Positions 1,333 through 48,194 of a DNA stretch of 49,834 nt are shown here, in pieces. Numbering within the stretch: position 1 is the first letter of the stretch; each line of letters begins with the position of its first letter. Under the pieces are notes generated by a model. That model was not told the origin of the DNA, searched no databases, and worked only from the letters and a program-made list of their open reading frames with translations. The position numbers and the translations under genes are program-made. The DNA comes from a virus. The stretch is from the IMG/VR virus record IMGVR_UViG_3300023112_000024, positions 1 through 49,834 of that record; one strand, written 5' to 3'.

Positions 1333-1377
1333 CTCATTTAGTTAACTTTAATTATGTTTACTTGCCAAGGAAATATT

Positions 1378-2295: not shown

Positions 2296-2322
2296 ACGCG
2301 CATGCTTTTGAGGTAGAAACAG

Positions 2323-2919: not shown

Positions 2920-2926
2920 GGGATTC

Positions 2927-4024: not shown

Positions 4025-7000
4025 CTACATTGCATCTTCTTCCCACCCTTTTGGCATTACGGCCTCAGCATATTGTTCGCTGAATTTAGCCATCAAACTC
4101 CTCATCTTCTCATCTATAGAATCTACACGGATTTTCATTTTCTCTCGATCGTCGTCACCGTATCGGCTAATCACTTTCCTTTTATTGGCTCGTAATTCTC
4201 GCAGCCTCGACCTGACATACTTCTCTCTCGCAATCATTCTCGATCTTGGGTCCGATCGAAGCTCGCGCACCAGTTCGACTGACTTCTGCTTCCTGGCGTC
4301 CTTAATCTCCGCACCATGAATACTAATATCTTCCGCCCGATCATAATACCGAGATGGAAGAGACTTACGGTCATCGTAGCCATACAACTTCCGGAGTATT
4401 ATAATATCATCGACCTCAATATCTTCCCCGATTGCGAGCTTATGGCCCATATTCAGGGAGTCAGTAACCGTTCTGAGCGCCGCGCCACCAGCAAAATCGA
4501 CAAGCAGATCCAGCCACTCCGGCGATACGTCGAAGAACCCCGGTCGGCGCGAGCTGCCCCCAGAGCCTTCGCTCAGGAATTTTGCAATTGCTTTAGAGGA
4601 TTCGCGGGACGATGACCAATACCTCTCCGCATTAGGAAGCTCCGGCCCATAGCCAAGACTCTCTGGCATCACTGGAATGCCAGCCCAGTTCTTATTTTCA
4701 GCGATCTGGGCAAACGGATCGATCACCGTGGGGGCCAGCGTTTGCAATAATGTGCCTTGGCCTACGGGATTGAATGCGTCTACGACAGAACTGGTAAATC
4801 TCCCGGCAGAATCCAGAGGGCTATACGATTGATCTTTCTCGGTCGCCGCCTGGAATCCTCGGCCCAACTCCTGGCCTAAGACATGCAGCGCGTTATATCC
4901 CCAAGGCAGCGGCCACTTAAAGATCGGGCCATCCTCCCCCATAATAATTAGGTTTCTGTTCTTTACGTGGTCAGGCAACGCATCGTAACGATTCTCGCCA
5001 TCATCATCATCACCCGACAATATGCGGTTCAAGATATCAAAAATCATAGCGAAGCCCACAGTGGCTCCAGCGAGCTTCCTGCCCTTCTTTGAGTGCTTTA
5101 ATGTTTGTAGCATCCTCACAGAGCCTTGCATCGAGGCGTTAAAGAACAGGAACGCGGCGTTCATTGCAGGCCCGTACATACCTTTCCTGTTAAAGTTAAC
5201 GGTCAGATCCTTCGCCAGAGAAGCCGCAGCCCTCTCAGACATACCGCCCCCTCCCTCCTCAACGGGTGTAACCCCGTGTTTGAATGCGGATAGCCGAATC
5301 GCGTTCTCAACTATAGTGTTGTAGTCATCAACAAGCTTGATGATAGGCTTCAAGATGTGATCTTGGCGGCCAGTTTTGTTGAACCGCTCAACCCTCTTGT
5401 TCAGGTCAGCAGCGGTCTTTTCCAGATCGTTGTGGACATCGATCCAGCCCGTCTTACCCCCGGCCTTCCGGAATCTTTCCGCCCAAGCCACCCACTCGTC
5501 GTTCGCATCCGACGCCATCTCATTTCGGATGTTCTTTTTCAAACCCTTCACCGCCTTCGGGAAATCGGCCATGATCTTTAATTCCATGCCTTCCAATTCA
5601 GTGCTCGTCAAATTGTATGCAGCGGTCTGTACGTCACGGGCGGGATTAGAGATAAAGAACTCAATATTGTAATTGGTGTTCATCGCAGACAGGAACCTAT
5701 TTAATGACATCAAGGTACGCAGGCCCCGGTTCATTCCCGTCTGGTCAAGGTTCTTCATCGCGCCAACCAATCTCATGGCCGAAGGATTCTCTTCATTGAA
5801 TGTAATGAAGTGCTGCTCCCCGTCCACCTTTACGGACAGAACATTATCTTTATTAGCAGGGTTCACCTCAGAATATCCCGCCTCGCCTTTCATTTTTAGT
5901 TCGTTTTCTGGATCTTTCTTGTACTTCACCCAAGACATTAGCTCAGGTTCGTCAACTTTCCACCAGGCGGGATCTGAATTCTCGTAGACAAAATTGAGCA
6001 AAGCTTTACCAACCCGATTTTTTTCTGCACGGACTTGGCTTACTTGGTACTGGGAGATCATGTTGCCAACCAAATTATCATGGTCTACATCCATCGAAGA
6101 GCCGACTCGCTGCTTGCTTTCCTTTCCCTTAATATTGAAGCCTTGCCCGTGAGCAGAAGAAAGATTGGCAACGGAATTATTAAAATCAGCCCGGCTCAGA
6201 GGGACGTAATGCCCGTATCGGGACATCCAAGCATTGGCTTCGAATGGAGATAACAGGTCATTATCGACCAATAGATCTACTCGAGCTTTATTGATCTTGT
6301 CTACTAGCTTGGCCACAGCAGGCAATTTCTCGTTTGCTCTTCTGTGCTCCAATATTTCTCGAGCCTCCTCATTAGACATCCCAGAAAGGGCCTTATTGTT
6401 GTCTCGGTTAGGATTAATCTCTTCCAGATAAGCGTTTGCTTCTTCTGCGTGGCGGGCATGAAGATATTCACCCACCTGCCCCATTGTCAGAGATGAATTG
6501 CCAATCGCTTCCAGTAAAGGCGTGAGATAGTCACGCTCGAAATTAGCCAGCTTTTCTCCCGCAAGCCCCTGCCATATCGATTCAGCCATATAGAAATCGG
6601 CATCTTCATTGCTGACCCGGCCTTTTTGCACCTCTTTCGCGTCAATCATCTTGTCCTGAAAGTTGTACCGGAATTCGTTTAAGCGCCCCCGGATCGTGGT
6701 TTCAATCGCTTGAACCTCTCCGAGCGTAGGCATAGGCGTTGGCGCTAAATCTGGATCACCCGCTTCTATCGAGAAGAACGTGGCCGTATCGTAGATCCGC
6801 TCCATTGCGGCATCGTCCAGATCGACGTACCAGTAGCCGGACGGGGATAGCGAGGAAGCTACCTTTTCAGCAGTCTCCTTGTCGCGATACCATTCTATTT
6901 CCCCAGAGCGAGCCCTGTCCCATTCGCCGTTTACATCAACGAGCCCCCACCTTTCGCCGCCTTTCTCTCCCGCCTCTTGCAGAAGCTCCACATCGTATGG

Positions 7001-28279: not shown

Positions 28280-30538
28280 TTATGTTCCTGCTGAGTTATT
28301 CTGAGGGGTCAAGATTTTAGGGGTCTGATACGATACTCCAGAAATAAGGCCTGCAGTTTTTCTTCGAGCTTTTATGTTTGCCATATGATCTACAGGCTCA
28401 CGATCTGGGGCAAAGCTCTTAGGCCCATCTGGAATCCCCAGCCTAGATCCAGCGACTTGCCCAGTCTTAGGGTCATGAACCAAATTACCAAAGTTGTCTC
28501 TTAAAGGGCCGCGAACGCCTGATATGAGTCCACTACCGCGATCAGGATTGCCACCACCGATCCCTGTGTAAATCCCGCCACTATCTTCTATGCGCTGATT
28601 ACCGCGTTGTAGAGCCCTTTCCTCTTCTTTGGCGGTTGCTTTAATTATATCCTCTTGATCTGGAGTGAACAGCCCCACAAGCCCTCCGAGGCCTGCCGAA
28701 AGAAGGATGGGAGCAAGATTAGAGCCACTACCAAACCAACCTACAATTTTCTCGAAGAATGTAGTGTCTTCAGGATCTCCTATCTCGGCTGTAACGTAAT
28801 TCGGCGGCACTTTATCCCAGTCTTCAGGATTTCTAACGGTATTAATTTCCCGCACACCATCTTCGTTCTCGACCACAACGGCAATAACTTCGCCTGTCTC
28901 CCTCATCCGGTTGTTCAGAATATCCTGAATGCTCTCTTTCATCAGGCCCGCAGCAGGATTACCCAACTGGTTTGCAAGAATTTTCCAGATTTGCAGCATT
29001 GTGCTACTGGGAAGATCTCTAAGATCTTCTGCCGTAACACCTTCGCCTAGAACGTCAAGAATCTCTTGAGCATTACCATCCCCTTCCAATATCTCGTTTA
29101 TTGTATCTTCAAGAGTTTTATTCCCCTCCGGAGGAAGCTCAGTTCCACTCGCAGCGTTTTCAGCGTCAAGTACGGCTTGCTCTTCAGGCGTAAGAGTCGT
29201 ACCCGTAGCGGTTTCAGCGTCGAGTATGGCTTGCTCTTCAGGCGTAAGAGTCGTACCCGTAGCGGTTTCAGCGTCGAGTACGGCTTGTGCTTCAGCTTCA
29301 GCTTGTGCTTGAGCCTGTGCTTGGGCTTCGGCAGCGGCTTGTGCTTGTGCTTGGGCTTGTGCTTGGGCTTCGGCAGCGGCTTGTGCTTGGGCTTGAGCCT
29401 GTGCTTGGGCTTCGGCAGCGGCAGCTTCAGCGGCAGCAGTACCTTCAGCATCAGCAGTAGCTTGAGCTTCAGCGGCAGCTTCGGCAGCAGCAGCGGCGGC
29501 TTGTGCTTGTGCTTGAGCCTGTGCTTCAGCTTGGGCAGCGGCTTGGGCTTGTGCTTGGGCTTGTGCTTGGGCTTCAGCTTGGGCAGCGGTTTCAGCGTCG
29601 AGTATGGCTTGCTGCTCAGGCGTAAGAGTCGTACCCGTACCCACAACCCCACCAACCAACCCACCGCTTGTATTGCTGAGAGGATTGTTTCCAGTGTTTT
29701 CTTCGCTTAGAGGGCCTACGTCAGACCGATTGATGTCCTGACTGTTTTCGGCGGTAGTCGTATTCGCACCTGCCGCCGCGATCTGATCTTCTGTTGCCCC
29801 GATACTCTTTAGCACTTCCAGGTTAACGTCTGCAACATCAATTGTCCCATCAGAAATCTGGTCGAGAATAGCATCCACGTAAAGCTTCTGAAGCTCCTCT
29901 ACCCCGTAACCTGCTGGCGGAGGGCTGCCAAAGATACTAAATCCTCCTTGCGCGGCCCCTGTGCCGAATAGATCTTCCAATAGCCCTAAAGGATCATAAA
30001 GACTGCTGTCCCAGTTTTCTGTGGTCGTAGTCTCTGCGTCCTGCGTTACTGCATCCACCCCGATAGTGGCTGTATCGACAGTATTGGGATTATCTCCCAG
30101 TGGGCTATCTATAAGCCCTGCCCTCGTGTTATCTCTCCAGCCGTTTACTATTTCTCCGGAATTAGTTTCGGTTGTAGACGTATTGTCCATCGAGGGTGAG
30201 CCATTTGACGGAAAGGAAGAAGCCACCTCTTGCCCATCCTGAGCGCCACCGTAAAAACTTACCATCCAATCCTCTAGGTCGCCATCCACCAAGACGGGCT
30301 GGAAATTTATCTCATTATCACCAATCCCATATTCGTTAGTTGTTTCACGTGAAACACCCAGCGCCGCCAATTCAGCTTGTATTGCAGCCTCAATCTGGCC
30401 TTCTTTTATGCCCTCTTCTACTCTGGCTTCGTTGCCCTGAGATTCGCTTTCAGGCTCGTACCCGGTCTGAGGCGCAGTGTTTGTCCCCGGATTCAAGTCA
30501 GACAGGTTTGGTAGATAATCTGCTATTAATACGGGCAT
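28280..30538 (-). CDS. Gln/Ala-repeat virion protein
   Basis: 752 residues. The centre (about 310-460) is low-complexity AQAQAQ sequence expected to be helical, bracketed by copies of an 18-residue unit containing GTTLTPEEQAILDAE. A hydrophobic Gly/Leu segment (LAPILLSAGLGGLVGLF) lies near residue 620, and GLISGVRGP and GLISGVSYQT occur near the end. GGAG precedes the ATG. Such long helical proteins with one membrane-prone segment are typical internal virion proteins. No enzyme motif is seen. Confidence 0.55.
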   Translation of the reverse strand: MPVLIADYLPNLSDLNPGTNTAPQTGYEPESESQGNEARVEEGIKEGQIEAAIQAELAALGVSRETTNEYGIGDNEINFQPVLVDGDLEDWMVSFYGGAQDGQEVASSFPSNGSPSMDNTSTTETNSGEIVNGWRDNTRAGLIDSPLGDNPNTVDTATIGVDAVTQDAETTTTENWDSSLYDPLGLLEDLFGTGAAQGGFSIFGSPPPAGYGVEELQKLYVDAILDQISDGTIDVADVNLEVLKSIGATEDQIAAAGANTTTAENSQDINRSDVGPLSEENTGNNPLSNTSGGLVGGVVGTGTTLTPEQQAILDAETAAQAEAQAQAQAQAQAAAQAEAQAQAQAQAAAAAAEAAAEAQATADAEGTAAAEAAAAEAQAQAQAQAQAAAEAQAQAQAQAQAAAEAQAQAQAQAEAEAQAVLDAETATGTTLTPEEQAILDAETATGTTLTPEEQAVLDAENAASGTELPPEGNKTLEDTINEILEGDGNAQEILDVLGEGVTAEDLRDLPSSTMLQIWKILANQLGNPAAGLMKESIQDILNNRMRETGEVIAVVVENEDGVREINTVRNPEDWDKVPPNYVTAEIGDPEDTTFFEKIVGWFGSGSNLAPILLSAGLGGLVGLFTPDQEDIIKATAKEEERALQRGNQRIEDSGGIYTGIGGGNPDRGSGLISGVRGPLRDNFGNLVHDPKTGQVAGSRLGIPDGPKSFAPDREPVDHMANIKARRKTAGLISGVSYQTPKILTPQNNSAGT
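29160..29640 (-). repeat. 54-bp repeats bracketing a Gln/Ala codon tract
   Basis: Two adjacent, nearly identical 54-bp units (29160-29213 and 29214-29267), a partial unit from 29268, and a further copy at 29592-29640. Between them about 300 bp of GCTTGTGCTTGGGCTT-like sequence encodes Ala-Gln/Ala-Glu runs. High DNA identity indicates recent expansion or contraction. Confidence 0.85.
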
Positions 30539-30577: not shown

Positions 30578-32836
30578 CTATACATTGTAAACTCCGCCGC
30601 TATCCCTATAGTATCCGGCTGCTCGAGCTTCTTCCTCTGATTGCGTAGGCGTCCCGATCCTTGCGTGGTAGTCGAACCAACTTTCTCCGGCGCGTCGTTG
30701 AGGTCGCGATTTATTATGCGCAACAACACCATCGACCAAATAAGTGTGTGTTCTATCAGTCGTAAAGTTATAAACCTTCGCAAGCTCTTCTCTGCTGATT
30801 AGCTCAGTAACTTCCTCTAGACCGTTAACGGTAACGAGATTATCACCAACTTCTAGTTGGCCAATTTCAATACCATACTCTTCGTAAGTTGGCTTTGATG
30901 CCTCTGGATTAAAAGATTTCCAACCTTCTTCTGTCAGGAAGGGATGAGAATCGGTACAGGTAATCCTGTCATTAATCGTAACAAGCGTTTTTAGTCCTTC
31001 AGGAATATCGTGAACATGAATAACTGTATCGAGTGAACCATCCTGAGTATTAACTTCATCGTCAACGATAATGTCTTCAATGTTTTTAGAACTACCATCC
31101 GCCATATCAATAGGTGTCCCGGCGACAAAACAATTTATCTCTGTTTCTCGTTCTGCCACCGCATAATCCTCCTCCCTTGGAGCAGCCTGGATCATGCTGG
31201 AGCCGTCCCTATTACCAGTCGCATAACTTTTATTATGCGCAACAACGCCATCGACCAAATAAGTGTGTGTTCTATCAGTCGTAAAGTTATAAACCTTCGC
31301 AAGTTCCTCTCTGCTGATTAGCTCAGTAACTTCTTCTAGACCGTTAACGGTAACGAGATTATCACCAACTCTTAGTTGACCGATCTCAATATCGTATTCT
31401 TCGTAAGTCGGTTTAGAAGCTTCTGGGTTACAAGACTTCCAACCATCTTCTGTTAAGAAAGGATGAGAATCGGTACAGGTAATCCTGTCATTAATCGTAA
31501 CAAGCGTTCTTAAAGCTTCAGGAATATCATGAACAAAAGTAACTGTATCTAGCGAACCGTTCTGAGTATTAACCTCATCGCCAACGGCAATGTGTTCAAT
31601 GTTTTTAAAGCCACCGCCCGCCATATCAATAGGTGTTCCAGCGACAAAACAACTTGTCTCTGTTTCTCGTTCTGCCACCGCATAATCACCCCGCCCTGGA
31701 GCAGGGCCGGTATTAGCGTCGGGCATCTGCTCCCCATATGTTTCCGCTTCTATTTGATCATAACCAGCCCGCGTAAGACCCGTTATGGGGCCGTAGGTTG
31801 GATGGTTAAAGGTATATCTACCGTCTGCATCCGGTGTTGGCTCTCCTGAAGGAGGTACATCATCCGCAGGAGGAGTCCCGGACCCCTCCTGATCGTCAGG
31901 GTAGCCAGAATAAAGGCCGTTAAGATCCATGTTCAGTATGCCGCCAACTAACGTAAGGCCATCCTCTATGCCCCGTAGAGCGGCATCAACCAGCACCTGT
32001 TTAGCCTCGGGGGTAAGATCCGGATCCGCTAAAATTTCACCTATCGCTGCCTGGCCTGTCGTGTAGACGAGCATTGCGTCACGGCTTCCCTGCAAGATCC
32101 CAGCATACTCATTCGCTATAGTCTGTAATAATTGAGCGTTCTGGTCGCTCATGCTTTGAGTATCTATTCTGTTCTGGTTAGCCATGATCTGAAGTTCTAC
32201 ATCGACCGCCGCTCTTTCTTGAACAGCCCTTACTCTCTGGTCGCCCTCCGCTGTAATAAGAATTTGATCTAGTTCATTTTTTCTATTCATCAGTCCAAGG
32301 TCGACTTCCCCTTGGGCGGCAATGTTTAGCCGAGACTGCCTGCCTTGAGCGCCGATATTTAGCCTGGACTCCCTGCCTTGAGCGCCGATATTTAGCCTGG
32401 ACTCATTGCCTTGAGCTGCAGTCTGTTCAAGCTGCTGCCTTCCTTGGACGTCAAGCAAGCCAAATTTGTTTGATTCCCCCGCATTAAAACGTCCAGCCTC
32501 ATTCATTTGACCGACATTAAATTGCTTGTTTTGGATTGATGCGTTTGCGTCTTGAGAGGCCATAGGGAGCGAATAGTCGTACAATGCCGATTCCCCTGCG
32601 CCGACGGCAAGTGAGGAGTTTAAGAGCCCTCTTCCTTCCATCGCTTGCTGTGATCGGGATCTGGCTTGCCGCATCGGAGCGGAATTCTTGGCAATGATCC
32701 CCTGAACTCGGCCCTCTACCGTGTCAGTGTCATAGTCCATGCTTGTCGTCGACGGGGAGTAGTCTGACACAGCAACATCATCGGACGCCGTGGATTCGTA
32801 AGTATTAATTATCCCCTGATTGTATGTCTCTGGCAT
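30578..32836 (-). CDS. Virion protein with two tandem Hint (intein-like) domains
   Basis: 752 residues. Residues 1-260 are helical, with three 11-residue repeats (ESRLNIGAQGR) near 150, as in internal virion proteins. Residues 396-535 and 569-708 are two Hint domains about 93% alike. Each has Cys1 in CFVAGTPIDM (block A), TCTDSHPFLT (block B Thr and His), VYNFTTDRTHTYLVDG (block F) and a terminal VVAHN (block G). Lys follows each His-Asn, so the Cys/Ser/Thr needed to complete splicing is absent. This is the bacterial-intein-like type known to cleave rather than splice. Cleavage after Asn708 would free a 44-residue C-terminal peptide. Processing of this virion protein is inferred. GGAAG precedes the ATG. 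Confidence 0.7.
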   Translation of the reverse strand: MPETYNQGIINTYESTASDDVAVSDYSPSTTSMDYDTDTVEGRVQGIIAKNSAPMRQARSRSQQAMEGRGLLNSSLAVGAGESALYDYSLPMASQDANASIQNKQFNVGQMNEAGRFNAGESNKFGLLDVQGRQQLEQTAAQGNESRLNIGAQGRESRLNIGAQGRQSRLNIAAQGEVDLGLMNRKNELDQILITAEGDQRVRAVQERAAVDVELQIMANQNRIDTQSMSDQNAQLLQTIANEYAGILQGSRDAMLVYTTGQAAIGEILADPDLTPEAKQVLVDAALRGIEDGLTLVGGILNMDLNGLYSGYPDDQEGSGTPPADDVPPSGEPTPDADGRYTFNHPTYGPITGLTRAGYDQIEAETYGEQMPDANTGPAPGRGDYAVAERETETSCFVAGTPIDMAGGGFKNIEHIAVGDEVNTQNGSLDTVTFVHDIPEALRTLVTINDRITCTDSHPFLTEDGWKSCNPEASKPTYEEYDIEIGQLRVGDNLVTVNGLEEVTELISREELAKVYNFTTDRTHTYLVDGVVAHNKSYATGNRDGSSMIQAAPREEDYAVAERETEINCFVAGTPIDMADGSSKNIEDIIVDDEVNTQDGSLDTVIHVHDIPEGLKTLVTINDRITCTDSHPFLTEEGWKSFNPEASKPTYEEYGIEIGQLEVGDNLVTVNGLEEVTELISREELAKVYNFTTDRTHTYLVDGVVAHNKSRPQRRAGESWFDYHARIGTPTQSEEEARAAGYYRDSGGVYNV
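30711..31168. repeat. 458-bp direct repeat, copy A (copy B 31230-31687)
   Basis: The two copies are roughly 90% identical by eye and cover the Hint domain plus the ten preceding codons (DYAVAERETE). Only about 61 bp separates them. The exact 519-bp offset and shared upstream codons point to tandem duplication of one Hint module rather than two independent insertions. Confidence 0.85.
30713..31132 (-). other. Hint domain 2 coding segment
   Basis: Encodes residues 569-708, offset from domain 1 by exactly 173 codons (519 bp). Cys1, the Thr/His of block B and the terminal His-Asn are all intact, and Lys again occupies +1. The downstream tail is KSRPQRRAGESWFDYHAR and about 26 further residues. 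Confidence 0.75.
31232..31651 (-). other. Hint domain 1 coding segment
   Basis: Encodes residues 396-535, from the catalytic Cys (TGT at 31649-31651) to the terminal Asn (AAT at 31232-31234). It has no room for a homing endonuclease (140 residues). The +1 residue is Lys. It differs from domain 2 at scattered positions, e.g. an extra Cys in WKSCNPE, where domain 2 has Phe. Confidence 0.75.
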
Positions 32837-32999: not shown

Positions 33000-33308
33000 C
33001 TACCCCAGAAGTGGGCCGGGAGCTTCAGGTCTAGTATCCGGAAACCCAGTAGTCTCAGGATCGTCCGGCCATACCCTCAGTTCTTCTCTGTAGGTTATCC
33101 ATGCCGCGTGATCGGGAAAATCAGTAGTAGGCACTATAAAATCAGTAGCTTGTAGCTGACCATTCCTCCATTGAATTGCGGGAGCATTTATTTGCTCTTC
33201 CGTTAGCGGCACAAGTTCATATTCGGAGTAATTGGCCTCCATAAACGCTTCGTCGGCAATAACCGACGTAATCACCACACCGTTTTCTAAAACATTAAAT
33301 GTAGCCAT
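33000..33308 (-). CDS. Tail fibre assembly chaperone-like protein
   Basis: 102 residues. The C-terminal half, WRNGQLQATDFIVPTTDFPD then HAAWITYREELRVWPDDPET and FPDTRPEAP, is the recognisable motif of phage tail-fibre/tail-assembly proteins, in which a short W-R-x-x-x-L-x-x-T-D segment and Y-R-x-x-L-R-x-W-P segment recur. It probably helps fold or attach the neighbouring Gly-rich adhesin or fibre, whose gene is directly upstream. A strong GAGGGGGG sequence precedes the ATG. Confidence 0.65.
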   Translation of the reverse strand: MATFNVLENGVVITSVIADEAFMEANYSEYELVPLTEEQINAPAIQWRNGQLQATDFIVPTTDFPDHAAWITYREELRVWPDDPETTGFPDTRPEAPGPLLG

Positions 33309-34397
33309 TTAAAAACCCCCCTCGGGACCAATTATTTTAATAAACACAAAGCCAGAACCACCAATGCCACCGGCCGCTCCGTAAGTGGGAGCGACGTTTT
33401 GTGTACCCCCACCACCACCGCAACCGCCGACTTCTCCAGCGCCACACCCGTATTTGTGGCTCGCGAGATCCTGCTCCGCACACCCACCTCCAGCACCAAA
33501 CCAACCAGCGCGAGCAGTAACCAATCCCGCGGCGGCCTCGCCGTCCGTCGAACAACCCCATCTCTCGGACCGGTCACCGCCGGCGACATAACTTTTTCTC
33601 CACTTCAAAAGTTCTAAAAACGGTCCCTGCGGTGCCTGAACACCGGAACCTAATACGGCATCGAATCCCCCGATTGTAAGCAAGTCTGAGTTCGGCCCAA
33701 AAATGCTGCCTCCGGCATAACCGGAGGCTTGATTGTTAGTTTGATTTTTGCTAGGAAAGCCGAGTCCAGCACCTCCAGAGACGGTGCTCCTGTTTCCTGC
33801 GGCCGTATTATCGGTATGGGCTGTACCAGAAGATTGTGCTGGGCCCAATAAAGCTATAGATCCGCCGCCGGTTGAACTACATCCATACCCCGTGGTCATG
33901 TTTGTCGTAGCATCTCCAGATGACCCACCAGTGTAGTTTCCAAGGGTCCCTCCTGTTGCGGTCCCTCCTGTTGCTCCAGTAGCCGTGAGAGAAGTAGAGA
34001 TCGAAGTACCAGCATTGCCTCCATTGCCTCCATTGCCAGTCATCGTCGCAATGTCTGATCCAGAAAAAGTCGTCGCGCTGCCAGCATTACCGGGTTTATC
34101 ATTCCCTGGTGTAGCGAAAGTCGGCTGGTAAGCACCGCCCGCTCCTATCGTTGCCGTGTATGTAACACCAGCAGAAAGGGTCATAAGACTTACCGCGGCT
34201 CCACCTCCGGCACCGCCTGAAGCTGCAGCAGCATACCCAGCGATCTGGTATGAAGTGGCTGCTCCGCCGCTACCGCCACCGCCGATAACATACACATAAG
34301 CCTTGCAATCAAACGCCGGGGTCCAAGTGGTTGACGCTAATAGTAAGACTTCAGTAAGCCCGGCCGAACCTGTTCCTCCTCCACCTAAAACTGCCAT
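33309..34397 (-). CDS. Glycine-rich tail adhesin (receptor-binding candidate)
   Basis: 362 residues, about one-quarter Gly. The opening AVLGGGGTGSAGLTEVLLLA, then VYVIGGGGSGGAA, followed by repeated Gly-rich loops (MTGNGGNGGNAGTS, GGCGGGGGTQN) and the closing GFVFIKIIGPEGG match the Gly-rich tip proteins of phage tail fibres, whose Gly loops carry variable receptor-contact segments. Clustered Cys residues (WGCSTDG, GGGCAEQ, KYGCGAG, GGCGG) may stabilise the tip or bind metal. The neighbours are a tail fibre gene upstream and an assembly chaperone downstream, the expected trio. GAGGT precedes the ATG. Confidence 0.65.
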   Translation of the reverse strand: MAVLGGGGTGSAGLTEVLLLASTTWTPAFDCKAYVYVIGGGGSGGAATSYQIAGYAAAASGGAGGGAAVSLMTLSAGVTYTATIGAGGAYQPTFATPGNDKPGNAGSATTFSGSDIATMTGNGGNGGNAGTSISTSLTATGATGGTATGGTLGNYTGGSSGDATTNMTTGYGCSSTGGGSIALLGPAQSSGTAHTDNTAAGNRSTVSGGAGLGFPSKNQTNNQASGYAGGSIFGPNSDLLTIGGFDAVLGSGVQAPQGPFLELLKWRKSYVAGGDRSERWGCSTDGEAAAGLVTARAGWFGAGGGCAEQDLASHKYGCGAGEVGGCGGGGGTQNVAPTYGAAGGIGGSGFVFIKIIGPEGGF

Positions 34398-34400
34398 AAT

Positions 34401-35321
34401 TTATACCTCGAACCAGCCGACAGTTGCATCGACATAGACTAATTGGGTTGAATTGCCCGTGGGCAGCGTGCCGTCAGCAGCTGCTGAATTTATATTTGAA
34501 CTGTTTCGTCCTATTGTCACTAATGCTGCTCCTGCGTTGCTAATTATTACTGTATCTCCCGCACTTGGACTTGCAGGTAAAGTAATTGTGAAAGGTGTAG
34601 TTGCGTGATTACAAATCAACTGGTCGCCGCTAGCTGCGGTAAAGGTTGTTGTTTTGATCAGCCATGGCGAGTAAGCGCCCGCTGCGGATGCCTGCGAGTC
34701 AACATAGGTTTTGATAGCGAGCGATGAAGATATGTTTGTGTCGGTCGCGCCAGCCATTGTATCGCTTTCGATAATATCGGTTATTGTCGCCCCCGGCCCT
34801 AACTTTAAACTCTCAAGAGTAGCCAAGCCTGTGGTGGTAATCGTTGCGAGACTAGCCAAGCCTGTGGTGGTAATCGTTGCGCTAGAAGCCGCCCCGGTCG
34901 TAGTGATCGCGTTGTCCTGAAAGTCGAATAGAGATCCAGAATCATCATATTGCAGTTGCAGCGTGGCAGCCCCATAAATCTCAATGTCGTTAGGCTTTGT
35001 GCTGTGAGTGTCGCCATATAGACGAATAGACCCACCAAGGATGTTGGTTGTGCCTGCAGTGATGTACAGGATGCCATTTGTGTCGCTACCCCTGATCTCC
35101 GGATTAGCCACAGAGAAGTTGAGATCGTCGTACAAAGTAAGCTGAGTTTGAGCCAATACACCAGTGCCGCCAGGGTTTACCTGGAATATTCCGTTTGCTG
35201 TTAGCGCGGGGAATAAATCAAATGCTGTCTCAATCCCTGTGAATTCTGTCCTCATGACGGCAGAAGATCCAGACGAGCTGGTTATCGGTTGCCCTGTCGG
35301 AGTGTAATATGGAGCTGCCAT
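34401..35321 (-). CDS. Tail fibre protein
   Basis: 306 residues. The N-terminus (AAPYYTPTGQPITSSSGSSA, then VMRTEFTGIETAFDLFP) is a common start of phage fibre proteins that bind the tail. A beta-repeat region follows (ITTTGLASLATITTTGLATL) with near-identical 14-codon direct repeats around 34820-34880, then a conserved fibre segment ISSSLAIKTYVDSQASAAGA and a C-terminal beta domain (ITLPASPSAGDTVIISNAGA). GAGG lies seven bases before the ATG. Probably carries the Gly-rich adhesin encoded immediately downstream. Confidence 0.7.
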   Translation of the reverse strand: MAAPYYTPTGQPITSSSGSSAVMRTEFTGIETAFDLFPALTANGIFQVNPGGTGVLAQTQLTLYDDLNFSVANPEIRGSDTNGILYITAGTTNILGGSIRLYGDTHSTKPNDIEIYGAATLQLQYDDSGSLFDFQDNAITTTGAASSATITTTGLASLATITTTGLATLESLKLGPGATITDIIESDTMAGATDTNISSSLAIKTYVDSQASAAGAYSPWLIKTTTFTAASGDQLICNHATTPFTITLPASPSAGDTVIISNAGAALVTIGRNSSNINSAAADGTLPTGNSTQLVYVDATVGWFEV

Positions 35322-35324
35322 GAT

Positions 35325-37415
35325 TTACCTCAAATATCGTCTGTTTAAGTATCGGATAAACGCCCCAGAATACGCCAAAGGGTTCATGATATCCGAATTC
35401 TTGCGTATTATTATACCCATATTCTCGGCAGAACCCGAAAGCCCTAGACGAGAAGGCTCCAAAGTCACTCCATCCCACGTAAAAGCGTCCCAAACAACTT
35501 CGTCCCATCGAGATTCAAGGAACTCTGTTTGCACGGGATATGCTGTGGAACTAGGCTGAGGCATCTTACGAACATCACCATAACCAAGGTCATAAGCAAA
35601 AAAGAATTCTCCGTACCCTGACCCAGAAACTTCTAGCGCACAACTCATCCATCGTTTTTTGAATCTAGGAGTCCCCATGTTGTGGTAATGGAATACCAGG
35701 GAGGCCTCTATTTTGATTCCGTCAAATGAAGTGCCTTTGTCTAGTTCGTAGACAATTCCAGCATCGCTTCCAAAATACATGCCCTCAGAGCCATCTGCTT
35801 TCTCTACAGAGATCGATGTTTCTATTGAGTGAGAGAGGACAATAGGCATTATGCCGACAAGCTTGCCGTTTGCGATTGTGATGTGATATCCGGATTTGTC
35901 ATTGAAATAGACGCGATACTGGCTTTTTGCCCTAGATATCAGAGACGAAGATATTTCCGTCTTCTTTATATTTATTGTCTCTCTAACTTTGTCGGAGACA
36001 GTGCTAGTCACGAAATTACCAAACTTCTGGGTTGTTTTTAGGCTCGTTACGCCCCACTGCCCCATAAAGAAAGTTTCCCCCAGCGTTTGAATCGAGTTTT
36101 CATAGGCCCCGACCTCATCTCGAAATTCGACCAAATTCCAGTCCAGAACAGAGTTTCCGTAGAGAACATGAGCCAAGTTTGCGTTTAAAATAAGCAGAGC
36201 CGAATCTCCTGACTCTCCAGGCTGTATTGCAAATCCGGTTATTAGGTCTTCTGTTGCAATCTCCGCAGCGCCAAGTATTGGCTCCCAGTTGAACGGCTTA
36301 CCTGTGCCGGAGTGCTGAATCGAATTGTCGAACGAGAAAAATAAGCTATTGTTGTGAACGACAACATGATCCGGAGTGTCATCAACCATCCCTGTAGCTA
36401 TGGGCGCAAATACCGTCCCATCAAACTCAAACCCTCGATTAAGCTTGTCACAACCATATATCCTTGAGGATCCTAGCAAGTTAGCACGGACAGTCTCGTA
36501 ATCTCCTCCTGGGAGCAAGGTTATTGCCGTACTGTCTGCCGCAATTGTGGCGACATTCAAATTAGCGCCAACATCTAGGTTCTCTGATTGGAATGTCCCT
36601 GTCTGACTGGCGAATATAAGCCTGCCAGAGCCGTCGTCACCCTCCCAAGAACCCGATTCAAGAGAAATTCTAGTTATTACGGCCGTTGCACCGGATATTG
36701 CGCCAGTTATCGTATCGCCTTCCGCTACTATGTAAGACCCTCCGCCTGTGAAAGGAAGCTCTCGCCCAAGCGGGACTTTAACCCATCCCGCCGCAGTTGC
36801 TTTGTATAGATCGGCCTCCGTATTTCCGACATTATTCCTGAACCCGTAAACAACACTGCTCAGAAAGCCGATTCCTAATACGCTTCCCGCACCAGGTATC
36901 GCGCCAATATCGGACCTGTATTCGTTGGCAGTCAAGCTCTTGTAAGTAGCCTGCAAGAATGGCGTGGATCCACCGTTTGGCACTTGAGTATCGTCGGTAT
37001 TGCCCTCAGTGACCCCGCTAACCTGAAGATCCTCGGAAACATTGAAAGCCCCGGTGTCCTTTGTGATAACTAAATAGGCCTGGGCCCCGCTAGTGCCAGT
37101 TGATATGACTACAGCCGTTTCAGTGGAAGTAACCCCTGTGATCGTGTCTCCAACCGTAAACGTGCCAGTAATGGTGACATTCAATAAAGCGTAATTTTGG
37201 GCTGAAGGACTTGGGCGGCCATCATATCGCTCATACCCTTGGATATCACGGTAACCCCCATCGAGCCCCATCTCAAAATTCTGGGATTCTCGAAGCGACC
37301 CTGGGTCTGCTTCCCAAGGAGGAACCGTTTCGTCAAGCCCACCCTGAAATGCCAAGTAGTTATACTGGGGTGGCGGAGTCCTTGGAACCTGAGAGATACG
37401 ATTCCCGAGTCTCAC
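35325..37415 (-). CDS. Tail nozzle / tail tube closing protein
   Basis: 696 residues. The opening YNYLAFQGGLDETVPPWEAD with SQNFEMGLDGGYRDIQGYER, then SSRIYGCDKLNRGFEFDG, DHVVVHNNSLFFSFDNSIQH and IATEDLITGFAIQPGESGDS are features of the beta-propeller-like nozzle proteins that close short tails. Two inserted Gly/Thr-rich modules (VGDTITGVTSTETAVV, EGDTITGAISGATAVI) resemble modules of the 849-residue protein. Near residue 637 there is a WDEVVWDAFTWD motif like that of the repeat protein. GTG start overlaps the adaptor stop (GTGA). Confidence 0.7.
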   Translation of the reverse strand: MRLGNRISQVPRTPPPQYNYLAFQGGLDETVPPWEADPGSLRESQNFEMGLDGGYRDIQGYERYDGRPSPSAQNYALLNVTITGTFTVGDTITGVTSTETAVVISTGTSGAQAYLVITKDTGAFNVSEDLQVSGVTEGNTDDTQVPNGGSTPFLQATYKSLTANEYRSDIGAIPGAGSVLGIGFLSSVVYGFRNNVGNTEADLYKATAAGWVKVPLGRELPFTGGGSYIVAEGDTITGAISGATAVITRISLESGSWEGDDGSGRLIFASQTGTFQSENLDVGANLNVATIAADSTAITLLPGGDYETVRANLLGSSRIYGCDKLNRGFEFDGTVFAPIATGMVDDTPDHVVVHNNSLFFSFDNSIQHSGTGKPFNWEPILGAAEIATEDLITGFAIQPGESGDSALLILNANLAHVLYGNSVLDWNLVEFRDEVGAYENSIQTLGETFFMGQWGVTSLKTTQKFGNFVTSTVSDKVRETINIKKTEISSSLISRAKSQYRVYFNDKSGYHITIANGKLVGIMPIVLSHSIETSISVEKADGSEGMYFGSDAGIVYELDKGTSFDGIKIEASLVFHYHNMGTPRFKKRWMSCALEVSGSGYGEFFFAYDLGYGDVRKMPQPSSTAYPVQTEFLESRWDEVVWDAFTWDGVTLEPSRLGLSGSAENMGIIIRKNSDIMNPLAYSGAFIRYLNRRYLR

Positions 37416-38161
37416 GCCAACGGCCCTCTCATCCTCATCGCAGGCATCTGATTGCCTTCCAACTGCCTCATCATTCTATTTCCCTCTTTCTGGGCTCGAG
37501 CAATGACCTCTCCCGCGCTTTCGAAGTAACCATACTTCTCCAAGGCCTTATAGACGATCAGCTTATGAAATTGGGCAGGCATTCCCGGAACTTCAGTGTC
37601 GTCAGCGATGGTGTTAGTAGCCCCCAAAACTTGAGGCCCCCGCTCATAGTAACTCTGAATGTTGTAGATATCGTTCGGTTCTGGGCCAATAACAATGTTG
37701 TTTTGAGGATCAACCGTGATGTAACGGGGATAACCTGGGTTTTGCAGGCCTGTTCTATAGACCAAACGAAACCAATCCCACTCCACCCATATCATCCAAT
37801 TTTGAGTGGCACTACCTGCGGAAACTAAGTGAATCCTCGGAGGGTCAACACGATCGTCTAGACGCCAAGAAGAGAAGCGGTCAATAGGATTCGACGCCCC
37901 GCCCGTAACATCATTAATTCCTGCGTTATCATACGCATAAACACCGCCGTCAGACGCGGCTGTAACAACCTCAAAAAGACGCCTCTGCCATCTAAACGAT
38001 TCAGAGTGTCTATTTTGGATATCTATGTAGGCGTCACTTACCCAGTTTGTTACCCGAGCAAGCTCTCCAGTTTGGCTCACAGTGGTAGAAGGGACTGCTG
38101 CCCCTCCGGCCAAGTTGGCCTCTAATGAGAAATTTTGGCATAACTCAAGAAAAGTTGACAA
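37412..38161 (-). CDS. Head-tail adaptor protein
   Basis: 249 residues. The pattern STFLELCQNFSLEANLAGG, then RVTNWVSDAYIDIQNRHSES, FRWQRRLFEVVT, IVIGPEPNDIYNIQSYYERG and MPAQFHKLIVYKALEKYGYF is that of adaptor proteins that dock beneath the portal in short-tailed phages, with an N-terminal helical part and a beta-rich end. It begins at TTG 38161 with GGAG six bases upstream. Its stop overlaps the nozzle start, consistent with these two proteins being made in balance. Confidence 0.75.
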   Translation of the reverse strand: MSTFLELCQNFSLEANLAGGAAVPSTTVSQTGELARVTNWVSDAYIDIQNRHSESFRWQRRLFEVVTAASDGGVYAYDNAGINDVTGGASNPIDRFSSWRLDDRVDPPRIHLVSAGSATQNWMIWVEWDWFRLVYRTGLQNPGYPRYITVDPQNNIVIGPEPNDIYNIQSYYERGPQVLGATNTIADDTEVPGMPAQFHKLIVYKALEKYGYFESAGEVIARAQKEGNRMMRQLEGNQMPAMRMRGPLA

Positions 38162-39958: not shown

Positions 39959-40999
39959 CTATAGATCTGTGACCCCAACTTCGACGACCGCCATCCATCC
40001 ATCGTTCTGGATAAAAGGAGCACACCAGAAGATCGCGCCAACATAGCCACGCTGGCCGTGCGGATCATTCTTATCCTTCTGGGAATGAGGAATGTGAGAG
40101 ACATCGAACGAATTCAATCCGCGCAATGCAACGTCACCCCAAGCATCTTCGCCAACAACGATCACAGGGTAAACGTCGATGTTTGCCCCAGTCGTGCTTA
40201 CTAGGCCGGTGGCACCAACAGCCGCGCCAGAGTCCGGTATAGAAGTAAGCTCTGGCGAGATGATGAACCTGTATCGATCCACTGCACCAAGCTCGCATTC
40301 GTGCATGACCTTACGTGAACCGTAAGACGCACACTCTACAAATCCTGGCAATTCCCGAATGTCGTTCTCACAGTCGGTGTGGCAGAAAACGAGGAAGCCC
40401 GCTTCTACAGCCGTGGTGTTGTAGTTAGCTGACGGAGCCAGAATCTCCGTAATCATGTCGCACCGATTACCAAGCAGGCTACGAGTAACCTTTCGAAGCA
40501 ATCCGAGTTTGACAGTTTCATCAACAGTAACTCTTGAAGTACCGCCTGCATAGAACAGGTTGGTACAGCCTTTAAGGACACCGTAGCGAACCTTCTCGCG
40601 TACAAGGCCCATACGCTGACCACACTGCTTCTTCATGGCCATAGGGATATCATCCTCATATAGCTCTGCAGTCTTGTCAGTGTACATATAGAGGGCGCTG
40701 TATTGATTAAGCGTCACAGTGATATCTTGCGGGATCAAAGTGTCTGCTGGAGGTGTTACGCCGTCCTGAGTCAAATGGGTATTGGGATCTACCACCCATT
40801 CGTTGATGGTTGTTGCGTTAGTTGTTGCGCCACCAAAGGGTAACCAGCGCCTGAAGATAACTGTATCAGACTGGTTTTTACCCATCTTGTGCTGTGTGCC
40901 GGTGATGCCAAGCACTTCTTTAGGTACGGCATGCTTGAGGATAGCCCCTTTGAGCTTTCCAATTCGCTGCGCCGTCGTGTCATATGTTTGCATAGTCAT
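39959..40999 (-). CDS. Major capsid protein, N4-gp56 family
   Basis: 346 residues. The sequence TAQRIGKLKGAILKHAVPKE, then DTVIFRRWLPFGGATTN, ALYMYTDKTAELYEDD, RCDMITEILAPSANYNTTAV, VFCHTDCENDIRELPGF and DRYRFIISPEL matches the N4-gp56 capsid family, a HK97-fold shell protein of short-tailed phages. ATG 40999 (MTMQTYDTTA) is chosen over the upstream TTG because GGAGT lies eight bases before it. The scaffold gene is upstream and hairpins lie downstream. Confidence 0.92.
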   Translation of the reverse strand: MTMQTYDTTAQRIGKLKGAILKHAVPKEVLGITGTQHKMGKNQSDTVIFRRWLPFGGATTNATTINEWVVDPNTHLTQDGVTPPADTLIPQDITVTLNQYSALYMYTDKTAELYEDDIPMAMKKQCGQRMGLVREKVRYGVLKGCTNLFYAGGTSRVTVDETVKLGLLRKVTRSLLGNRCDMITEILAPSANYNTTAVEAGFLVFCHTDCENDIRELPGFVECASYGSRKVMHECELGAVDRYRFIISPELTSIPDSGAAVGATGLVSTTGANIDVYPVIVVGEDAWGDVALRGLNSFDVSHIPHSQKDKNDPHGQRGYVGAIFWCAPFIQNDGWMAVVEVGVTDL

Positions 41000-41131
41000 A
41001 GTGCGATACTCCAAAAATTTCGCTAATTAGAACAACAACCGCATATATAAGCGGATGCTCTTTCATTCCCTTTCCTAATCAACGAAGGATTTTCATCGTT
41101 CGCATAAACCTATTGGGGCAGTTTCCTGCGC
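41000..41131. other. Leader of the capsid gene
   Basis: 132 bp between scaffold and capsid genes. On the minus strand GGCGCAG-GAAA-CTGCCCC (41115-41132) gives a GNRA hairpin touching the scaffold stop, and CCGC-TTATATAT-GCGG (rough centre 41050) gives a small second stem. No convincing promoter was found. The stems may serve to stabilise or separately tune capsid mRNA. Confidence 0.35.
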
Positions 41132-42325: not shown

Positions 42326-42533
42326 CACTAACCTCCGCCCTGTAGTGATAAGACTGCCCTCTAACTTGGGCCACCTCACCTCTTTTAATTCTACCCATTG
42401 TCACGGGGTCTTTAATGCCGTCAGGCACATCGACATGGCTTACTGGCACCCAATCTTCAGGAATCGCACTAGGATCTAGTGATTTAAAGACAGTAAGTCT
42501 GCCAAATGATAATTTACCCAATTTTACAGTCAT
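42312..42533 (-). CDS. Small protein downstream of the portal gene
   Basis: 73 residues, probably beta-rich (TVKLGKLSFGRLTVFKSLDP, then EDWVPVSHVDVPDGI). Its ATG overlaps the portal stop by four bases (ATGA, 42530-42533), so it is translationally coupled to the portal. Unknown function. Confidence 0.5.
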   Translation of the reverse strand: MTVKLGKLSFGRLTVFKSLDPSAIPEDWVPVSHVDVPDGIKDPVTMGRIKRGEVAQVRGQSYHYRAEVSVESR

Positions 42534-44848
42534 GCTTCGAATGCCCTCCCTGGAGGAGCCCTGCCGGGCACTTCGGTAGCGGGCCTTATTGTTTGCCCTC
42601 CAGCCCCTGCCAGCTCTTTCTGAGTTGTTAGTTTCATAACGACTTCCGCAATACCGGCCCTGATCTTTTCTGCTTCTCTTTCGGTCAAACCGTCCTCTTT
42701 AGCCTGAACTATTGCAGTATCAATCTGCTTCATTGCTGCCTCAAACTCCATCTTCTTCCTGGTTTCTTCCGCCTCGAATTGCATTCTCCTCTCATCCACC
42801 TGCACATCAAGCTGCTTCTCCATCTTGGCCACTTCACCTCTAATGTTAGCCACCTCAACTGCTGGATCTGAAGGTGGCTGAGACATCTGCTCAACAACTT
42901 TCTGCCATTCAGGGTCGTCATACTGGAATTTTTCAATGTCCAGTCGTTGCTGGGTTAGCTGCTGGGCCATCCACTTTTTTGGATCTAGCCCGAATACCGG
43001 GTTCATTACTAGCTCGCCCATCTGCTGTATAAATTGATTTTGAGCATCCCGCTCAAGTAACGCCGAAGATCCCTTGGCATGGATCTCGAAATCCCCCTTA
43101 ATCTCCCAGTCCTCTCCGTGCTGGAGCAGATATCTATAATATCGCCGGATATGAGGCTCTGTGATCAGATCATCAAACAATCTGGCAATTCTTCGCATGA
43201 CTGTGGATGCGTTGTTATGCAATAACTGCATGCCGCCAACCGTTTCCGGAGCAGATCCCTGCTGGCCCTGCATAATAAGAGGCATGCCGCTGACATCTTC
43301 AGCCATTTTCAGGCCCATAGTGATTATCGCCTGCAGCTCTTGTTGGACCATCGGGATGGTGATGAATCGAAAGGCGTTATCAATATGATTTAGATCAGCG
43401 TCCTCAGCGGCCATCCACCCTTTTCTCGGCGCTAACTCCATCACTCCATCCATAGGGGTTACAAGACCTTGCTGATACATCCACATAGGACCGCCAGCCA
43501 GGCCAGCATTATCCATCATGTTTCTTGCGGCACCGTTTACTACGCGCTGCGCCGATCGGAGCTGACGAGAGATACCAATACCCCAGCATGTTCCCTGTCG
43601 CCTCTGCCAAACCATGACATCGTAAGGGAATTCGCCTGTTTCAAGGTGGTTAGGCATTAACCGAATAATATGGTTGTTTACCATCGTAACGCAGATATCA
43701 ACGACATCTGCGTATTCTTCCCCGACTTCGAATCCAGCAAGAGCTATATCTTCTCTTTCCAGCCGACCATAGAAATACCAGATCTCAAACAGGCCGTCTC
43801 TACTGCTAGATTCTGAGAGGCCGTTAAATGGGGCGTGTGACCCTTCTCCCGCCTGGAACTGCTTTACTGCAATCGCAGGGCCTTCCATTAAAACTTTTTC
43901 GATTTGTTCGTCCAGATACCCTGGGTTTCCGCGAAGCTCACTCAAGCTCTTTGCTACAAGCAAGTCGCGCTCAAAAATGAACCCGCCAGTGTGAATATCT
44001 TCGCCACAAGCAGGATCAGGAAAGAGCTGCCAAGGGTCAACCCGAACGGACACCGGGGAGATCTTTTCTTGAACCAAAAGCTCATCTTTAACAAACGCGA
44101 CACTTTTGGTCTTCTTTGGGAGAGGCCCTTTCAGAACTCCACAGCCAATCTTGGCGGCATCAGCCACCACAAGGCGCATCTGTGCCGTGTAGTTGCACTC
44201 TATGTGCCAATCTTCTATCTGCTTTTCGGCACCATCAGCCTTCTTTTTGGATTCCTTAAGCTCTTCCTGAACTTGGCTGACAAGTTGATCTCTGACTTGA
44301 ACGGCTTTTTCCGCCCCCGCCTGAATTGGGTCTTCCTGATCGTCAAAGCGGCCTGTATCTACTTGATTTTGGAATTCGCTATCAATCTGATTCTGAACTT
44401 TCTTAGGTACTTCTCCGCCCGCTATCTGAATTAAGTCAGGAACTGGCGTTGGCTTAATAGACCATCCCTTCTCATTGCTGGGAAGCAGCATGTCGCCAAC
44501 CCTAGCGTCGGCCGCATCTACATAAGGCCTAGTGACATTGAAAAAGATTGTTGATCCGTCAGGCCGATCCCCTCCAAGAGCAGCCTGGCCCATAGGCTTT
44601 GTTCTCCAAGCCTTGGATTCACCACGATTGGTGTCATCGACACCCTCGTAATGCTCTTCATCTTCAAGCCATTCTTCCTCAATACCGGATTGTGATCTTC
44701 CGTCTATCGCATGAGATCTTTTTTGAGCGATCGCCATGCCAAGATTCTTTAGCATGGTATCAGTATCGTCAATCGATCCTTCCATGCCTTCTTCGCCAGC
44801 AGAAGATGCAATGTCATCCTCCTCTTCCGTTTGCATCATTTCACTCAT
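42530..44848 (-). CDS. Portal protein
   Basis: 772 residues. Acidic N-terminus, then RPDGSTIFFNVTRPYVDAAD, AEVGDMLLPSNEKGW-like sequence (ADARVGDMLLPSNEKGWSIK), VRVDPWQLFPDPACGEDI, EFPYDVMVWQRRQGTCWGIG, ISRQLRSAQRVVNGAARNMM and MAEDVSGMPLIMQGQQGSAP, the typical sequence progression of large podovirus portal proteins, which form the dodecameric DNA gate at the capsid vertex. The C-terminal 150 residues form a long helix with heptads (EVAKMEKQLDVQVDERRMQF), as in portal barrels. GGGG precedes the ATG. Confidence 0.88.
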   Translation of the reverse strand: MSEMMQTEEEDDIASSAGEEGMEGSIDDTDTMLKNLGMAIAQKRSHAIDGRSQSGIEEEWLEDEEHYEGVDDTNRGESKAWRTKPMGQAALGGDRPDGSTIFFNVTRPYVDAADARVGDMLLPSNEKGWSIKPTPVPDLIQIAGGEVPKKVQNQIDSEFQNQVDTGRFDDQEDPIQAGAEKAVQVRDQLVSQVQEELKESKKKADGAEKQIEDWHIECNYTAQMRLVVADAAKIGCGVLKGPLPKKTKSVAFVKDELLVQEKISPVSVRVDPWQLFPDPACGEDIHTGGFIFERDLLVAKSLSELRGNPGYLDEQIEKVLMEGPAIAVKQFQAGEGSHAPFNGLSESSSRDGLFEIWYFYGRLEREDIALAGFEVGEEYADVVDICVTMVNNHIIRLMPNHLETGEFPYDVMVWQRRQGTCWGIGISRQLRSAQRVVNGAARNMMDNAGLAGGPMWMYQQGLVTPMDGVMELAPRKGWMAAEDADLNHIDNAFRFITIPMVQQELQAIITMGLKMAEDVSGMPLIMQGQQGSAPETVGGMQLLHNNASTVMRRIARLFDDLITEPHIRRYYRYLLQHGEDWEIKGDFEIHAKGSSALLERDAQNQFIQQMGELVMNPVFGLDPKKWMAQQLTQQRLDIEKFQYDDPEWQKVVEQMSQPPSDPAVEVANIRGEVAKMEKQLDVQVDERRMQFEAEETRKKMEFEAAMKQIDTAIVQAKEDGLTEREAEKIRAGIAEVVMKLTTQKELAGAGGQTIRPATEVPGRAPPGRAFEA

Positions 44849-46589: not shown

Positions 46590-48194
46590 TTAATAACCCA
46601 CACCAGAATCGGTATAGGCCCTTCTTTTAAAGGTTGGCATGGGCTTGGCCTCCATAGGCCCGATAATTTTCATCTCATCATCACAGATTCTACTCATCAT
46701 ATCCAAGAAGTCATCCCACTTGGAAACGGGAAAATGAGAATACTCAACTTCTATTAGATCTGCGATTATATCTCTGCTTGTCCCGTCTACCATCGGTTTC
46801 ATCAATCTTTCTGGTAACCAGATCTTCCCTTGGCTCAAAAGCGGGATCAAACGACGGATACGATCCTCCTTTTTTAGCGAGCCACCAAGCTCAATAATCT
46901 TAAACCGATAGTCTAAGACCTCCATTTCTGCTTGTATGTGGGCAATATCGCTTTGCGCTCCGTATTGCTCATAGCCTACTCCCTTTGGCTTGTACTTGTG
47001 ATGCCACTCGAATAACAGCTCCGTGCGCTCAACCAAGTTCAGCCGGTCACGAACCCCGTCTATTAGATAGTATTGGTCATCCTGGCCTTTGCCAAAGACT
47101 CCCATTGCCGTATTGTCTCTTTTCCCTGTTACGCCGGGTTTTCTTTCCCCAGCAGGGTCTACCAGTATTATTTTGTTGCAGCGTTTTGGTGGAGTCTTGT
47201 ACGTCATGAGCCAGTCTAACCGCAGTTCGCCCCCTCCTTTCGGTGACGGCCTTTGCTGATACTGCCCTGCTGTATTGTATGGCCCCCACTGCTCCTCCTG
47301 AGCCAAAGCCGCAGCCTCGTTGACGCGAGACTCAAACATTAGCTCCCCAGGGTAGGTTCTTGGATCAAAGAGGTCAGGCCGATTAATATCTTTGCCAGCA
47401 TCGAATGCCGACTCACCTTCGTATCTCATGGGGATAATTAGATGAATCCAAGGCTCTTTCTCCAGACTTAGCAAATAGCCAGTAAGGTCTTCCGAGTGAA
47501 GCCGCTGCATGATCACAACGATCGCGTCTTCATTCGGATTGTTCATTCGGGATGTCCAGCCCTCCTTCCAAGCATTAAGAACCTGCTCCCGCTTTACGTC
47601 AGAAAGGTTCTTTGCGTCATGAGGATCGTCAATAATCAGCGTCTGACCCCGCTTACCAGTAACGCTCGACGTCATCGACTGGGACTGCCTATGCCCCCGA
47701 TTTTCATTAGCGAATAGACCTTTCTCGTCTTGCTGACGATCCATTGTAACTTTATCGCCCCATCTTGTCTGGAACCACTCAGATGTCACCAGTTGACGCA
47801 TCTTTACAGCATCACGCAAAGCTAGAGACTCATCGTTGGATCCGCAAAGAAATCGATGGGAAGAATCAGTCGCCCATGTCCACGCAGGCCAGAACACTGA
47901 AACAATCAATGATTTCATCGTCCCAGGAGGAATGTTGCAGATTAAACGCTTAATCTCTCTAGAGCTAACCTTCTCCAGATACGCGCAAATAAGACTTAGG
48001 TGCCAGTTCCACTGCAAAGGATTTGATGGCTCGAGAATATGCCACCCGCCTTTGATAAAATCAGCCAGATTCTCTTCTTGGCTGGCTTTAAGGGCCCTCT
48101 CAGATACTTGCTGCCGTAACGCCTGTATTTGATCCGGGCTCAATTGAGAGAGATCCACTGTCAGCCCTGGCTTTTTCACTCCTCTCATCGGCAC
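46590..48194 (-). CDS. terL: Terminase large subunit
   Basis: 534 residues. Walker A is IPPGTMKS (about 88-95), Walker B is TLIIDDPH (Asp189-Asp190), coupling motif region VVIMQRLHSEDL follows, and the RNase-H-like nuclease starts at IILVDPAGER (Asp346), with a linker AGQYQQRPSPKGG and later SDIAHIQAE. These are the ATPase that pumps DNA into the procapsid and the nuclease that cuts concatemers. GTG 48194 (GGAAG upstream) or ATG 48188 may be the start; either overlaps the upstream small gene by about 90 bases. Confidence 0.93.
   Translation of the reverse strand: MPMRGVKKPGLTVDLSQLSPDQIQALRQQVSERALKASQEENLADFIKGGWHILEPSNPLQWNWHLSLICAYLEKVSSREIKRLICNIPPGTMKSLIVSVFWPAWTWATDSSHRFLCGSNDESLALRDAVKMRQLVTSEWFQTRWGDKVTMDRQQDEKGLFANENRGHRQSQSMTSSVTGKRGQTLIIDDPHDAKNLSDVKREQVLNAWKEGWTSRMNNPNEDAIVVIMQRLHSEDLTGYLLSLEKEPWIHLIIPMRYEGESAFDAGKDINRPDLFDPRTYPGELMFESRVNEAAALAQEEQWGPYNTAGQYQQRPSPKGGGELRLDWLMTYKTPPKRCNKIILVDPAGERKPGVTGKRDNTAMGVFGKGQDDQYYLIDGVRDRLNLVERTELLFEWHHKYKPKGVGYEQYGAQSDIAHIQAEMEVLDYRFKIIELGGSLKKEDRIRRLIPLLSQGKIWLPERLMKPMVDGTSRDIIADLIEVEYSHFPVSKWDDFLDMMSRICDDEMKIIGPMEAKPMPTFKRRAYTDSGVGY

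Follow-up and report, generated by a model that had tools for sequence, protein, structure and literature searches.

The minus-strand gene at 30578..32836 of the window (by which we mean the whole 49,834-nt stretch of viral DNA that was analysed) specifies a 752-residue protein with two Hint domains in tandem. These are probably intact A-type bacterial intein-like (BIL) cassettes which lie in flexible sequence of a late-module protein, leave their host protein through cleavage and splicing by aminolysis, and spread by recombination. The original prediction had described two nearly identical Hint domains, each retaining Cys1, the block B Thr/His and the C-terminal His-Asn; this is borne out by the residue positions, and the lengths it gave for the linker (33 residues) and the C-terminal part (44 residues) are exact.

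The ORF has an ATG start, and all of its parts are given here in minus-strand order. The repeat-rich N-extein (residues 1–395, 31652..32836), which has a Hint-free homologous part in Pseudoalteromonas phage Y3, contains a 33-nt tandem repeat (SRLNIGAQGRE) at window positions 32310-32449. Hint 1 (C396–N535, 31232..31651) is recognised by Pfam and TIGR models, catalytic residues, an AF2 model and Foldseek, and Hint 2 (C569–N708, 30713..31132) by residues, nucleotide comparison and AF2. Between them is the linker (residues 536–568, 31133..31231), which begins with the Lys+1 of Hint 1 and ends in DYAVAERETEIN, a copy of the sequence preceding Hint 1. The C-extein (residues 709–752, 30581..30712) begins with the Lys+1 of Hint 2 and has no recognised domain. 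Cys1 is C396 in the first copy and C569 in the second, the block B motif TDSH begins at 455 and 628, and both domains end in HN-K-S (N535 followed by Lys536, N708 by Lys709). The copies share 89.3% amino acid and 88.0% nucleotide identity; since dN/dS between them is 0.16, both appear to be under purifying selection. The duplicated unit also takes in some 10 codons upstream of the Hint (DYAVAERETE). The identical tandem is present in two more IMG/VR contigs (L001 and L002), which rules out an assembly artefact as its source. No second Hint gene was found elsewhere in the window.

Several Hint-clan models of Pfam match above their curated cut-offs, namely AXH (4e-19), Hom_end_hint (1e-16), PT-HINT (PF07591; 1e-15, 58.6 bits against a cut-off of 27.7), Vint and Hint_2, as does the intein_Cterm model TIGR01443. 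The PF14890 Intein_splicing model scores 23.6 bits, below its gathering score of 35.8, and gave no match in another search. AF2 models of Hint 1 (pLDDT 90, pTM 0.84) and of Hint 2 with its tail (pLDDT 85) both adopt the Hint fold. The best PDB match by Foldseek is 6y75, BIL2 of Tetrahymena BUBL1 (E 1.5e-10, TM 0.74, 25% identity), which is also the best profile match (1e-25); the BIL of C. thermocellum (PDB 2lwy) is a further structural match (5e-8). Additional PDB matches (tagatose aldolase) and Pfam matches (DctP, PDZ) were at chance level, and a match to PHROG 21587, a family of unknown function, was uninformative. Across 24 non-redundant, divergent viral Hints the C1, T..H and H-N positions are near-invariant, and dN/dS is 0.10–0.31 across all Hint pairs compared.

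Because of the terminal His-Asn and the absence of a nucleophile at +1, both copies are read as A-type BIL domains, a reading which fits the sequences and the predicted models. Each has a Hint fold of about 140 residues with Cys1, the block B T..H and His-Asn, followed by a residue other than Cys, Ser or Thr (Lys536, Lys709). Insertion is into variable sequence, as seen in 37 host-protein groups with no detected similarity to one another and in the Gly-rich hinge of a related family. Such domains are said to have been reported by Amitai in 2003 and Dassa in 2004. The phage Hints resemble A-type BILs such as that of C. thermocellum (PDB 2lwy) in the terminal His-Asn, the non-nucleophilic +1 residue, the lack of an endonuclease and the location in variable regions, which for A-type BILs are those of non-conserved proteins (PMC7765530). 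They differ in their phage hosts, the conserved Lys or Arg at +1, the frequent ending of the protein at HN-K and the sharp exchange of cassettes between unrelated phages. With the class 1 phage inteins of terminase, DnaB and RNR they have in common the Hint fold and the residues of blocks A, B, F and G, but they lie outside any conserved active-site motif of an essential protein. A canonical intein with an endonuclease is ruled out by the 140-residue domain, the Lys at +1 and the PF14890 score below cut-off.

Relatives were gathered from viral and genome contigs by patterns that excluded the +1 position, in searches seeded with HNK Hints, so that the following frequencies describe one clade and not Hints at large: +1 is Lys in 15 and Arg in 6 of 23 non-redundant viral groups (60% identity clusters), against a Lys background of 5.8% in these proteins, and Lys in 17 of 27 Hint groups from genome contigs. 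At 28 loci (several of these represent the same phages in overlapping copies) exactly one residue follows the Asn at the end of the protein, and it is Lys in every case (28/28). Three Hints of the annotated phage collection have Ala, Cys or Leu at +1. Judged by sequence, Lys (or Arg) at +1 is a conserved signature of this phage Hint clade and not a defect. The original prediction that Lys at +1 blocks normal splicing is called into question by its presence, or that of Arg, in 21 of the 23 viral groups, and by A-type BILs without a +1 nucleophile, which still splice by aminolysis, that is, attack of an amine on the thioester, with cleavage dominating in vitro (PMC4031507).

A bolder suggestion from these sequences, and one we hold to be rather unlikely, is that the Lys+1 of the clade may be a dedicated, built-in amine nucleophile which resolves the thioester by lysine aminolysis. 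This would make the Hint a self-contained mobile splicing cassette with no need of the host protein, and might also join virion proteins covalently through lysine. BUBL1 BIL2 (PDB 6y75, 6tmm), the closest relative in structure and profile, likewise lacks Cys, Ser or Thr at +1 and is reported to join its N-extein through an isopeptide bond to the epsilon-amine of a lysine (PMC8616854). In BIL2, however, the lysine that accepts the N-extein belongs to the ubiquitin-like domain that comes next, and Met is the residue aligned at +1 in the solved chain, whereas the phage Hints have Lys at +1 itself and occur in late-module hosts without ubiquitin-like domains.

Self-processing by paired Hint domains in a packaged protein was, in the original prediction, not known to be described. 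The BUBL1 locus has two BIL domains (PMC9200820), and at least two Hints per ORF were found in other phages (L033-L035, L101, L103, L121, L125, L127, L129-L131, L134 and L136) and in bacteria (L167 and L172). As tandems recur in unrelated phage and bacterial proteins, that of the window is one case of a recurring pattern. A literature search, with little coverage of subscription journals, found no papers on such phage Hints in virion-region genes. BFVD and UniProt hold phage Hint proteins of similar predicted structure named “Hint domain containing protein [uncultured Caudovirales phage]”, an automatic annotation only.

The boundaries of the cassette are seen in comparison with other phages. 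Hint 1 shares 93% protein identity with the Hint of L003, which lies in a different host protein, and at the DNA level a stretch from residue –1 to Lys+1 (31229..31654, minus strand) is 95% identical by blastn to the L003 Hint in its unrelated gene. Between the window and L003-L008 the Hint is the only part shared at the DNA level, and besides it the terminase alone is detectably related (24% identity in protein comparison). Since the shared DNA runs in L003 exactly from residue –1 to Lys+1, the cassette brings its own +1 residue. Both copies are mosaics, each with an interior almost identical to Hints from another phage lineage: the middle of Hint 1 is 98–100% identical to the L003 Hint, the interior of Hint 2 is 95–100% identical to the Hint of L004 and, in nucleotides, 98–100% identical to that of L004/L005, and the two copies are most alike at their C-terminal ends. 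The simplest reading of this pattern would be that a Hint was duplicated and the copies were then converted by Hints from other phages, and from such identities we infer that the Hints are mobile. Window positions 1354-3634 encode an Erf-like annealing protein and exonucleases, which could drive the exchange.

All Hint matches taken together are spread over 37 host-protein groups, between which no similarity was detected, and some of the host genes exist in two forms. The host gene of L003-L008 occurs Hint-free in L194-L198. A second host gene, adjoining that for the portal, has a Hint in L203, L207 and L208 and is Hint-free in most of L209-L228 and in gp76 of the cultured Pelagibacter phage HTVC033P. 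Here the Hint occupies a Gly-rich hinge preceding the C-terminal domain, which is identical in L203 (with Hint) and L210 (without). In the Hint-free alleles the flanking parts remain fused in one chain.

Many Gly-linker proteins of the virion region have at their C-terminus a conserved domain of about 105 residues (CTxM/CTEL...GYHKLFLPLV...), for which Pfam gave no match; it was found in L022, L027, L210 and HTVC033P gp76 (L201 2693-4330). The C-termini of L217, L025, L073, L079, L099 and L103 are formed by a second Hint-like domain, a divergent one (CFxxGTxITMxDGS...SGSHMV...), which has no terminal His-Asn, is possibly B-type-like and often stands directly past HN-K-G. In phrog_358, a family of very large phage proteins (2056 aa), the protein is divided between at least two ORFs with a Hint near the split point (L075 1-5295 and 5286-6881; L021 1402-7730).

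These alleles bear directly on the principal alternative, which is the view of the original prediction: that the Hints only cleave, and that release of the N-part, the 33-residue linker and the 44-residue tail is regulated and belongs to virion assembly or ejection. We think this fairly improbable, and the suggested timing of activation on assembly or ejection is speculative, even with the mostly cleaved products of A-type BILs (PMC4031507), the placement of the gene in the structural module, and the L022/L027 family, in which the Hint precedes a conserved C-terminal domain of its own standing. Because the Hint-free alleles hold the two parts together in a single chain, there is no conserved need to separate them; that the Hint is excised, whether or not the ends are rejoined, is the more plausible reading of these alleles. 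Nor does the defined 44-residue product that had been envisaged recur among relatives: from one family member to another the C-exteins are unrelated, and at 28 loci a lone Lys makes up the whole C-extein. Self-excision of the Hints, rather than production of a conserved 44-residue peptide, is most likely on these comparisons. The fused flanks of the Hint-free alleles would favour splicing, yet in vitro the chief outcome with A-type BILs is cleavage (PMC4031507).

It is very unlikely that the domains are decayed, inactive remnants retained as inert structural filler. The absence of a homing endonuclease and the position of the copies in low-complexity, non-conserved regions would agree with this, but the near-invariant catalytic positions of the 24 divergent viral Hints, the dN/dS of 0.16 between the two copies and the high-confidence AF2 fold speak against it. 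Least probable of all is a pretoxin-HINT which frees an effector at the C-terminus for delivery with the phage. PT-HINT is one of the Pfam matches, and toxins typically carry a HINT immediately ahead of their C-terminal domain (PMC3482391), but a polymorphic toxin was ruled out as no toxin domain follows the Hint, the 44-residue C-extein having no Pfam match. Many relatives also end at HN-K, and the neighbouring genes that were scanned, which were part of the ORFs, included no recognised immunity gene.

That the Hints lie in a virion protein, as was originally proposed, stands in part: two intact Hints are present in a late-module gene, and the protein is likely to be part of the phage particle, given the position of its gene in the structural module and synteny with phage Y3. 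The module, on the minus strand, includes genes for terminase (46590-48194), an SU10-type portal (42530-44848), the major head protein (39959-41014) and tail and fibre proteins (33000-38161); these last are followed by the Hint gene and then by large proteins, among them an LPD38 polyvalent protein (4025-9484). Near the latter and inside the late module is a 917-residue protein that contains a C5 cytosine methylase domain (13509-16262). The neighbour of the Hint gene at 28280-30538 encodes another 752-residue protein, in which Ala, Gln and Glu form long repeats (AQAQAQAAAEAQ...). The only homologue of the N-part, found as one weak match to a 97-residue query and backed by pairwise blastp (29% over 110 aa, E 1e-7), is a 519-residue protein of Y3, without Hints, whose gene occupies the same place between a tail fibre gene and a very large protein. 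A 349-residue query found no relatives in phages, and in IMG/VR the N-part had near-identical contigs only.

Returning to self-excising BIL cassettes, we take from the sequences the identity of the Hints, their intact residues, the Lys+1 signature, the cassette boundaries, the mosaicism and the presence/absence alleles, and add to these a predicted catalytic activity and ratio of splicing to cleavage, a presumed role for Lys+1 and a putative route of recombination, besides the likely location in the virion. Mini-intein-like cassettes, predicted to be catalytically intact, would occupy hinges or disordered stretches of a phage protein from the late module. Cys1 would form a thioester with the N-extein, Asn cyclisation would cut the C-terminal junction, and the Lys+1 that belongs to the cassette might then resolve the thioester through its freed or its side-chain amine, so that the Hint would leave by splicing without Cys, Ser or Thr, or else by simple cleavage. 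Since the cassette brings its own Lys+1, no host nucleophile would be needed and almost any flexible site could serve, including the very C-terminus. Copies would spread, and convert one another, through homologous recombination between co-infecting phages; the tandem would have arisen when one Hint with some 10 upstream codons was duplicated and then converted with foreign Hints.

What role the residue after Asn plays when classical nucleophile chemistry is impossible becomes, with these Hints, a testable question. If Lys+1 cassettes work, new ligation tools would follow, and phages would possess a large natural repertoire of self-excising domains that lack an endonuclease and do not depend on the host. 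This would explain the persistence of BILs in non-conserved regions of proteins, and Hint sequences would be recombination islands between unrelated phages.
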